From: Treponema sp.
Lineage (GTDB): Bacteria > Spirochaetota > Spirochaetia > Treponematales > Breznakiellaceae
DNA: 5,817 bases
Assembly (NCBI GenBank): GCA_031288815.1
Contig: JAITQR010000229.1
Span: 1-5,817, forward strand
Direction: 5' to 3'
The notes under the pieces: model-generated
Databases searched by the model: none
The model's input: only the letters and a program-made list of their open reading frames with translations
Told to the model about the DNA's origin: nothing
Part shown: positions 3,910 to 5,817 of the stretch, piece by piece
Layout: every line of letters starts with the position of its first letter
How positions within the stretch are numbered: position 1 is the first letter of the stretch
Program-made: the position numbers and the translations under genes

Positions 3910-4986
3910 ATGAAAAAGTTTTTGGCAGCAGCATTGGTGCTGCTCGTCGTCTGCTCATCTCTGGCTTTTGCCGCGGGTGGCAGTGATTCGTCCGGGACCC
4001 TGAAGATCGCCATGATGCCGAAATTCAAGGGTGAGAACTATTTTGACGCCGTAAAGATCGGCGCCCAGGAAGCGGTTGATGAACTCAACAAATCGGGCAA
4101 AAAGGTCGACTTCCTCTACGACGGCCCTCCCCAGGATCAGGCCACCAACCAGCGGCAGGTGGACATCCTCGAAGGCTGGATCGCCCAAAGGGTAGGTGTC
4201 ATTCTCTTGTCCCCCAACGATCCCAGCGCCATTGCGCCGACCCTGAAAAAAGCCCAGGAAAGGGGCATCAAGGTTATTACGTTTGACGCCGACGCGCAGG
4301 CGGACGCCCGGGATCTTTTTGTGAATCAGGGAACCTACGAAGCCATCGGCAAAGGCCTTATAAGGGGCATTGCCGACAGCCTCAAGGCAAAAGGCTACGG
4401 TCCTTCGAACCCCGCGAACATCGCCTTTGTATCATCGGCCAAGACAGACGCCAACCAGAACGCGTGGCTTGCCGAGGCGAAAAAAGCCATAGGCTCCAGC
4501 GAGTACAACTGGCTCAAACTTAAAAACGAGGACACCGATGTGTACTATCCCGGGCCGGATGAGACAACCACCCAGGCCCAGAGCGGTATCCTTATCGGAA
4601 GAATGGGCGCCGGTACCGACCGGATTCAGGGCGCCATCGGCCTTACCTCCATGTCTACTCCCGCGCTGGGTTCCCAGTACGAATCCGCGTCGGTAAAGCC
4701 GGACGTTTCCAAAACCGCCATTACCGGCCTTGCCACACCGGCTGCCCTTAAATCCTACATCAAGAATTCCACCAATCCCCTTGACACCGGTGTTCTCTGG
4801 GACTGCATGGACCTTGGCTACCTCGCCGTCCAGGCCGGCTACCAGCTGGCTACCGGCGTCATAACCAGTTCGTCGACTTCGATAACCGCCGGCAGGCTTG
4901 GTACAAAGAGCATTGCCAACAAGGAACTGGTTCTTGGCGACGCCCTGGTTTTCGACAAGACCAATGTAGACAAGTACAATTACTGA
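3910..4986 (+). CDS. Periplasmic sugar-binding protein (RhaS/LsrB-type, Peripla_BP_4)
   Basis: A 358-residue exported receptor that should capture the sugar and hand it to the two permeases. The signal peptide runs over residues 1-21: basic MKK, a hydrophobic core, then SLAFA with likely cleavage before AGGSD. Cys15 follows LVV, a poor lipobox. The type I periplasmic-binding fold is indicated by LKIAMMPKFKGENYF (31-45), YDGPPQDQ (70-77), ILLSPNDPSAIAPTLKKA (98-115), RGIKVITFDAD (118-128), NQG (139-141), SSAKTDANQNAW (175-186), ITGLATP (271-277), WDCMDLGY (297-304), AGRLG (327-331) and the ending LVFDKTNVDKYNY, which mirrors LsrB. The WD..DLGY and AGR-G blocks resemble what I recall of rhizobial RhaS. 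Relative to LsrB as I recall it, Lys38, Asp126 and Gln183 match ligand-site residues, but Asn182, Leu245 and Ser247 do not. That argues against AI-2. An automatic annotation might still say 'autoinducer 2-binding'. The start is set by AGGAGG at 3899-3904. Confidence 0.9.
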   Translation: MKKFLAAALVLLVVCSSLAFAAGGSDSSGTLKIAMMPKFKGENYFDAVKIGAQEAVDELNKSGKKVDFLYDGPPQDQATNQRQVDILEGWIAQRVGVILLSPNDPSAIAPTLKKAQERGIKVITFDADAQADARDLFVNQGTYEAIGKGLIRGIADSLKAKGYGPSNPANIAFVSSAKTDANQNAWLAEAKKAIGSSEYNWLKLKNEDTDVYYPGPDETTTQAQSGILIGRMGAGTDRIQGAIGLTSMSTPALGSQYESASVKPDVSKTAITGLATPAALKSYIKNSTNPLDTGVLWDCMDLGYLAVQAGYQLATGVITSSSTSITAGRLGTKSIANKELVLGDALVFDKTNVDKYNY

Positions 4987-4995
4987 TTCCTTAAA

Positions 4996-5011
4996 ACCGC
5001 GTTTTCGCGGT
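4996..5011 (+). other. Hairpin just after the binding-protein stop codon
   Basis: CCGCG (4997-5001) pairs with CGCGG (5006-5010) around a TTTT loop, and A4996 can pair with T5011. It begins 9 nt after the TGA. No T-run follows, so by itself it is not a standard intrinsic terminator. It may protect the transcript 3' end or act together with the structures downstream. Confidence 0.5.
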
Positions 5012-5014
5012 AAC

Positions 5015-5040
5015 CTCTATCTAACGTAAGTTCGATAGAG
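5015..5040 (+). other. Symmetric hairpin with GTAA (GNRA-type) tetraloop
   Basis: CTCTATC (5015-5021) pairs perfectly with GATAGAG (5034-5040). Inside, after one T/C mismatch, AAC (5023-5025) pairs with GTT (5030-5032) and closes a GTAA loop. As RNA, GUAA is a GNRA tetraloop. An alternative pairing uses ACCTCTA (5013-5019) with TAGAGGT (5044-5050), also perfect over 7 bp, so two mutually exclusive folds exist. No known regulatory RNA family is recognised. Confidence 0.55.
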
Positions 5041-5077
5041 TATTAGAGGTCCGCGAATGAACGTTAATTTTCGCGAA

Positions 5078-5161
5078 CGGACTTTAGCCCCCGGACTTTA
5101 GTCGTCGGGCTTTAGCCCTCGGACTTTAGTCGCTGGGCTTTGGCCCTCGGACTTTAGTCCG
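5078..5161 (+). repeat. Six tandem 14-bp units, each a minihairpin (C-GGRC-TTTA-GYC)
   Basis: Six head-to-tail copies with an exact 14-bp period start at 5078, 5092, 5106, 5120, 5134 and 5148. Units 1, 2, 4 and 6 begin GGAC after the first base, and units 3 and 5 begin GGGC. The right arm is GTC in 2, 4 and 6, but GCC in 3 and 5, so the stem stays paired. Unit 1 alone has an A/C mismatch. The loop is TTTA, except TTTG in unit 5. Unit 6 forms the best stem (5 bp, CGGAC/GTCCG). Units 2+3 and 4+5 are a 28-bp duplication differing at three positions. A period of 14 is not a multiple of three, and the array lies in a non-coding gap, so it is not protein-coding. Confidence 0.9.
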
Positions 5162-5171
5162 ATTATTCGGA
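5158..5171 (+). other. Hairpin overlapping the last tandem unit
   Basis: TCCGA (5158-5162) pairs with TCGGA (5167-5171) around TTAT. It shares 5158-5161 with the right arm of the sixth minihairpin, so the two cannot form together. It is followed by ATTA (5175-5178) / TAAT (5183-5186) around GCGT, another weak 4-bp hairpin. Confidence 0.4.
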
Positions 5172-5234
5172 TTCATTAGCGTTAATTTGCGTAATTCGCG
5201 GACTTTTTTGATCTCATGTTATCTATTGCCCGTT

Positions 5235-5240
5235 AAGGAG
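5235..5240 (+). promoter_or_regulatory. Ribosome binding site of the URO-D-like gene
   Basis: AAGGAG lies 9 nt before the ATG at 5250 and supports that start. No convincing -35/-10 pair could be made out between the T-run at 5204-5209 and this site. Confidence 0.75.
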
Positions 5241-5249
5241 AATCATCTT

Positions 5250-5817
5250 ATGAATTCCAGAGAAAGAGTCTTCGCCGCCTTCAGGAAACGGCCGGAATTG
5301 CCGGACCGCGTTCCCTTTCAGTTCGACCTTTGCAGAAAATTGACGGATCATTTCGGTAAAAAACTGGGAATTACGCCGAAATACACCCTTTCTTATTATG
5401 AGGACTTAACGTACCGCATTTCGGCAAACGAAATTCGTACGGCAATGGGCAGTGACTGCGTTGTTGTGGGGGGACAGGTTGCGAAGAATTTTATTCCCCA
5501 GGTAGTACGGGACGACATAACCACCAATGAATTCGGCATGCACATGAAACCGACATCACTCTATGTGGAAGTGGTAAAGTGCCCGCTTGACCAGGCGGAA
5601 TCCGTCGAGGATGTGGAGGCCTATCCCTTTCCCGATCCATACGCCCCGGGCCGTATGGAAGACGCCAGGCGGGATATTGACCGGTTCGGAAAGGATCACT
5701 TTATCATCGGCGACTGCGAGCTTTCGCTTTTTGAGCTTGCCTGGCATTTAACCGGGCTGGAAAACTATATGGTCAACATGGCCGGTGAGGAAGACTGGAT
5801 TGAGGCGCTCAACGATA
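5250..5817 (+). CDS. Uroporphyrinogen decarboxylase superfamily protein (MtaA/CmuA-like), 3'-truncated by window end
   Basis: The first 189 codons of an open frame running off the window. The superfamily usually has 330-390 residues, so about half is missing. Seen: MNSRERVFAAFRKRPELPDRVPF at the N-terminus (a starting helix then P-DRVPF, typical of URO-D-like methyltransferases), SYYEDLTYRISANEIRTAMGSDCVVVGG (48-75), a PLDQAESVEDVEAYPFPDP segment (112-130), and IGDCELSLFELAWHLTGLENYMVNM (153-177), matching the family pattern of E-x-A-x-x-L-x-G-x-E. The HemE substrate motif RQAGRY is absent, so genuine haem synthesis is unlikely. Relatives move methyl groups to or from corrinoid proteins, or have unknown roles. 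Any zinc-binding His/Cys residues of the MtaA type would lie beyond the window. It is 263 bp downstream of the binding-protein gene behind a terminator-like structure, so it may be a separate or attenuated unit. Its substrate is unknown. Confidence 0.85.
   Translation, partial: MNSRERVFAAFRKRPELPDRVPFQFDLCRKLTDHFGKKLGITPKYTLSYYEDLTYRISANEIRTAMGSDCVVVGGQVAKNFIPQVVRDDITTNEFGMHMKPTSLYVEVVKCPLDQAESVEDVEAYPFPDPYAPGRMEDARRDIDRFGKDHFIIGDCELSLFELAWHLTGLENYMVNMAGEEDWIEALND

Follow-up and report, generated by a model that had tools for sequence, protein, structure and literature searches.

A palindromic minisatellite probably grown in the apical loop of a dispersed hairpin element in Treponema

In the BrickBuilt elements of Porphyromonas gingivalis, a minisatellite with units of 23 nt lies inside a MITE and the array forms part of the element (PMC4596501), while REP families can occur as tandem reiterations; CGTC-tagged repeats are described from five phyla including Spirochaetes (PMC3733652). 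The Treponema locus reported here resembles BrickBuilt, as presented in that source, in being a spacerless tandem repeat within a small intergenic element that has inverted-repeat ends and several copies per genome, yet its units are 14-nt palindromes and the copies of its element that we compared lack the array (PMC4596501). With the REP, BIME and REPIN sequences associated with RAYT transposases (PMC3733652, PMC6006769) it shares dispersed intergenic hairpins that are sometimes in tandem, whereas the array units here are direct repeats of whole short palindromes. Among seven copies of the element, GTAG or CTAC occurs in two (only at an end) and CGTC or GACG in five, in differing places, so that there is no consistent tag; the copy analysed here has one CGTC, inside the array. 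Prokaryotic MITEs (PMC10969869) are similar in being short and dispersed, with terminal inverted repeats and no obvious coding capacity, but no consistent target duplication was seen for our element. A further likeness is to template-switch mutation at quasi-palindromes, described as producing one-step changes that match both arms (PMC3820800, PMC7954356), a process that we infer at this locus. A survey of the open-access literature by titles and abstract openings turned up no description of arrays like this one in these bacteria; BrickBuilt is the precedent.

The window, by which we mean the whole stretch of 5,817 nucleotides analysed, carries on its + strand genes for a rhaM-like mutarotase, a two-domain sugar ABC ATPase, two permeases and a RhaS-like sugar ABC substrate-binding protein (3910..4986; 186.7 bits, under the NCBIfam cut-off of 342.25), followed after a gap of 263 nt by a downstream gene on the same strand (5250..5816), which runs off the window and of which the 189 aa present have no Pfam or NCBIfam match. 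The closest relatives of the binding protein are from Spirochaetaceae and Treponema MAGs (one MAG gives 92% and 91%, and none of the others exceeds 80%), which we take, going by their isolate codes, to come from termite guts. A separate small hairpin, ACCGCGTTTTCGCGGT (4996..5011, +), lies just 3' of the binding-protein gene, and a hairpin of different sequence is found in the corresponding gap at locus L001.

The array itself occupies 5078..5161 (+), in the apical loop of the element, as delimited by TRF, by the unit stems and by the insertion point in an alignment. TRF reports a period of 14 with 5.7 copies (5078-5157) and a period of 28 with 2.9 copies (5078-5159, 90% matches), and lag-14 identity in a 70-nt stretch beginning with the array is 0.70, a value reached in the window only from starts 5077 and 5078; these results confirm the six 14-bp units of exact period described in a first-pass annotation, which was also correct in cautioning that units 2+3 and 4+5 reflect one 28-bp duplication. 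Counting both strands and allowing up to two mismatches, the sequence GGRCTTTAGYCC is present at 11 sites in the window, of which the array holds 9; the expected total is 1.95, and none of 200 shuffles reached 11 sites. From unit 1 to unit 6, the pairs adjoining the closing C-G are A.C, A-T, G-C, A-T, G-C and A-T, and thus the reported switch between A/T and G/C pairing stands, with the mosaic unit 1 (A in the left arm, C in the right) as its exception. The accompanying description of every unit as a stem, a TTTA loop and a stem is accurate for the general form but too regular in detail: counting the closing pair and allowing G.T, the six stems have 1, 3, 4, 3, 4 and 6 pairs, such that unit 1 keeps the closing pair only and units 2 and 4 just three pairs, and the loop of unit 5 reads TTTG. 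A minisatellite (or VNTR) is built from units of roughly 10-60 bp repeated head to tail, and the array, with its 14-bp units in tandem, has this form.

Judged by sequence, the interval 5023..5220 (+) is one copy of a dispersed MITE/REP-like hairpin element with the array in its apical loop, its limits being taken from an alignment with seven array-free copies and from arm matches in relatives. On the + strand, its parts run from a left terminal inverted repeat AACGTAAGTTCGATAG (5023..5038; mostly ACGTGAGTTCGAYGG in relatives) to the left arm of a 14-bp basal stem, AGAGGTCCGCGAAT (5045..5058), which includes two G.T pairs in the folds, and, beyond the array, from an inner right arm ATTATTCGGATTCATTAGCGTTAATTTGCGTA (5162..5193) common to array-free copies, through the right arm of the basal stem, ATTCGCGGAC (5194..5209), which in the folds leads into a terminator-like T6 (5204-5209), to a right terminal inverted repeat GATCTCATGTT (5210..5220), shortened and changed where relatives mostly have GTCGAACTCACGT. 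The tetranucleotide ATCT lies on both sides of the element (5019..5022, +, and again at 5221-5224) as a possible 4-bp target duplication, and these flanks, together with the presence of the same ATCTATTGCCC at locus L002, fit insertion of the element. Inspection by eye of the other extracted copies gave one 5-bp case (L170) and no clear case elsewhere, and hence no consistent duplication. The element is roughly 110 bp in length: eight copies recovered complete elsewhere, with ends near ACGTGAGTTCGAYGG and GTCGAACTCACGT, measure 101-130 bp, and one of these eight, L075, carries two minihairpins in one arm. Thus the element is short, has terminal inverted repeats and occurs in many dispersed copies, as expected of a MITE; from this dispersal we infer that it may be mobile.

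A search with 5036-5220 of the window gave matches at E<=0.1 in 90 of the 195 genomes of the family (here the taxonomic family that includes G001, which carries locus L001), the closest genome, G001 itself, being without a match. The best matches listed cover query positions 127-174 and 2-42, which flank the array on either side and are often found next to each other in one place; most of those listed fall on the arms, and a few (e.g. in G126, G133, G145 and G154) on the array instead. Both arms could be placed in 22 rows of array-free copies, representing 19 distinct places, and, compared with the two flanks in the window, the arms in these rows enclose an additional -20 to 14 nt (at most 1 nt in 19 of the 22), as against 84 nt in the window. 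In a gapped alignment with seven array-free copies, the insert of the window sits between GCGAA and TTATTCGG and the right end of the element is shortened, whereas in the copies from relatives GCGAA runs directly into TTATTCGG. Another copy of the same element (L156) has an additional near-repeat in its loop, and a stringent pattern in two parts, written for the element's left side, is found in 6/195 family genomes. The consensus fold of the seven copies has two-sided changes in 2 of 39 pairs and a slightly unfavourable covariation term (+2.05), and therefore rests on inverted repeats and not on covariation.

Because the arms recur without the array in relatives, joined at the very point at which the array is inserted, we consider it probable that what is seen here is a palindromic minisatellite that expanded within the apical loop of this dispersed MITE/REP-like element, between the binding-protein gene and the next. 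For the same reason, the best supported of the readings offered by the first-pass annotation is that of a replication-slippage repeat tolerated in a terminator loop. Under the mechanism that we propose, the element would have inserted between the two genes, a C-TTTA-G minihairpin would then have been born by template switching at a palindrome, and replication slippage and unequal exchange would subsequently have altered unit number. Palindrome correction, or exchange between units of different type, may have produced the switch from A-T to G-C in one go, in place of gradual compensatory selection. Such an exchange would fit the mosaic unit 1, and likewise L118, the sole three-unit copy in G126, with its mosaic A..C middle unit. 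The basal stem, intact despite the insert in its loop, could together with T6 act as a transcription terminator or attenuator between the two genes. Folds place the 14-bp stem ahead of T6 in the manner of an intrinsic terminator, while a terminator pattern scan picked out a smaller stem (5186-5202) ahead of the T run at 5204-5209 (1 site, against 0.5 in shuffles), a count at chance level. Across copies of the element, 22 of 34 rows had a recognisable T run, and an upstream gene was found in 31 rows, directed towards the element in 17 of them.

The half-unit CGGACTTT of the array is also present at the foot of the element's right arm (CGGACTTTTTT, 5199-5209), and in G041 two copies of the element (L164 and L075) have one or two minihairpins adjoining that right-arm junction, the loop in L075 reading TAAA in element orientation. 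We considered CGCGAA...CTTTAG, found in 43/195 genomes (some of which also have backwards-control matches), as a possible single-unit form, but it is mostly CGCGAAGGCTTTAGCC, which in the places read is another repeat, and none of the 32 such loci inspected was a single-unit form of the window element: at L268 the same junction letters surround one unit but the arms are missing, and L262 contains part of an arm at a different place. A repeat in which CGCGAAGGCTTTAGCCTGAG is followed by GCGCGCCG, or by a close variant of it, was seen in several genomes (L260, L263, L264, L269-L273), in places as direct copies ~118 bp apart.

Tandem minihairpins are not restricted to the window. Matches to the pattern CTTTAGYC N1-7 GRCTTTAGYC, which represents two units, occur in 28 of the 195 family genomes, as against 2/195 for the pattern read backwards; in a sample of 392 genomes from the phylum, six match, and the 17 family members among the 392 hold three of these six, leaving 3/375 genomes sampled outside the family. 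The backwards control matches 12 of the 392 phylum genomes, none of them family members. The first-pass annotation had named a lack of other copies, together with unpaired stem changes at homologous loci, as pointing to a chance local expansion; this is not what was observed, since the motif recurs in tandem in those 28 relatives with stems that are mostly paired. The arrays elsewhere have periods of 11-17 and 2-7 units, the longest of the class seen here being a seven-unit array of period 15 in G157 (L127), with units such as AAGGGCTTTAGCCGG. In G126, tandem minihairpins lie at 53 places, of which 19 were fetched. Copies of one element vary in unit number, with two units in nine distinct arrays and three in one in G126, and with 2, 4 and 6 units in G074. 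The arrays read in these two genomes are enclosed by arms of the type GCGGTTTC...GAAACCGC or TGCGGTTTT...AAAACCGCA, and so belong to an element different from that of the window. Flanking arms scored above 99% of shuffles within 70 nt at 7 of 45 arrays, by a test that misses short adjacent arms such as those in G126, and an enclosing long inverted repeat may thus not be general.

Other repeats and searches deserve mention. In G008, 105 GGRCTTTAGYC sites (7 in the backwards control) were considered as copies of the window element, and 17 of the 23 sites read proved to be a separate repeat with ends AGGAGTCTGTGG. This dispersed repeat, seen among loci L048-L067 of that genome, starts with AGGAGTCTGTGGGGCTTTAGCCC and has inverted ends and one GGGCTTTAGCCC hairpin, several copies lying near contig ends. 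G184, for which 226 candidates were counted in a first look at the search with window 5036-5220, has a repeat element in which several minihairpins that differ from one another follow in a row (L274-L280), reading GGCTATAAGCC, CGCGAACGCG and CGGACTTTAGTCCG at L274. A hairpin census over 400 kb of G145, a weak test because the mask left 8% as non-coding, gave no excess of TTTA loops. Five records of a plasmid collection had short matches (best E 0.5), as had one phage record (E 7), and viral contigs gave no matches.

To what extent do these arrays carry paired changes? The set used for this purpose was drawn from the tandem matches listed and comprises 52 arrays from 27 genomes plus the window, with 123 units in total, identical arrays having been dropped (including one from G125, identical to one from another genome) and most of the G126 places lying outside the set. 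In these 123 units, the pair is A-T or G-C in 100, G.T in 10, A.C in 8 and something else in 5. When right-arm letters were redealt across arrays, a mean of 59 units were paired and 100 was reached in 0/5000 trials; when they were redealt within arrays, the mean was 87 and 100 was reached in 10/5000. With one array per genome (28 arrays; 58 of 73 units paired, with G.T and A.C in 6 each), the observed value was reached within arrays in 390/5000 trials, or in 1169/5000 without the window. Minihairpin units are thus palindromic far beyond chance, while independent switching of pairs inside arrays is weakly supported. The far-above-chance pairing (0/5000) leaves room for selection on the dyad.

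Several alternative explanations may be weighed against the minisatellite reading. One is that the family possesses a dedicated process, such as a hairpin-specific nuclease or transposase or a habit of replication, that seeds and multiplies C-TTTA-G minihairpins in the loops of many unrelated elements, in which case the minihairpin would be the replicating unit and the larger elements its hosts; we regard this as unlikely. We give slightly less credence to a lineage-specific enzyme acting on hairpins (a single-strand transposase, resolvase or similar) that would recognise C-TTTA-G hairpins and copy or insert them, much as RAYT enzymes are thought to copy or insert REPs. Such an enzyme would account for tandem CTTTAG hairpins occurring in several host elements and being nearly confined to one family, and for the scarcity of the TTCG-loop form of the tandem pattern (4/195 family genomes, 3/195 for its backwards control), but the constancy of the CTTTAG core is imposed by the search pattern, TTCG was the sole other loop tried, and the minihairpins of G184 are unlike one another. 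Y1_Tnp genes are present in 37 of 50 genomes searched, yet they occur in 23/28 genomes with arrays as against 14/22 others (MAGs may be incomplete), none of 20 fetched Y1_Tnp loci matches the element, and no consistent target duplication was seen. We set aside a RAYT/REP link, although Y1_Tnp genes are abundant: besides these 20 loci, in one of which (L198) two GGCTTTAGCC cores lie unlinked ~490 bp past the gene, 5 of the 28 array genomes have no Y1_Tnp match. Loci L189-L208 (G033, G040, G041, G042 and G048) illustrate the number of Y1_Tnp or RAYT-like genes in these genomes (38 matches in G033, 25 in G048), and GGTGTCWGACA was seen near a Y1_Tnp gene in 3/20 loci (L198, L204, L205).

It is also conceivable, and to our minds very unlikely, that selection has kept the array between these two genes as a regulatory RNA structure or as a stabiliser of mRNA 3' ends. 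The fold of 4987-5249 is indeed strong (better than 200/200 shuffles, z -7.27; -4.1 for the array alone), but the array alone prefers one rod of units 2-6 (-39.6 kcal/mol) to six hairpins in series (-18.9), and serial minihairpins are thus ~20 kcal/mol worse and not the best fold. At homologous loci, most of the 12 gaps inspected hold some hairpin by eye, with strongly differing sequences, yet the array motif is absent from all 17 loci encoding relatives of the binding protein, including two from the closest genome, at L009 there is an almost zero gap between the two genes, and Rfam has no match in the window at family gathering scores. If selection acted on the RNA of one strand, G.U would be expected as a tolerated state; the 10 G.T against 8 A.C pairs show no clear wobble tolerance and so give no sign of RNA-level selection, a comparison that is blunt if elements are transcribed from either strand. 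These results count against a structured RNA kept by selection, one of the possibilities first put forward. Least probable of all is a multi-site protein operator of six dyads, also proposed at the outset, since the regular 14-bp period and paired dyads, with G.T and A.C mismatches similarly frequent, as a DNA dyad would have them, are outweighed by the absence of the motif from the same 17 loci, by periods of 11-17 among arrays, which would shift helical phase, by the location of arrays in different elements, and by a promoter pattern scan near the array whose sole match lies inside the upstream gene, at chance level (1 vs 0.6).

The array therefore looks like tolerated repeat growth and not like a dedicated switch. 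A palindromic repeat growing inside a mobile-like hairpin can produce, through repeat mechanics, a look-alike of covariation, and so represents a trap in the discovery of structured RNAs. Tandem minihairpins that recur in several elements of one bacterial family provide, in turn, a concrete and testable case of hairpin-driven repeat birth.
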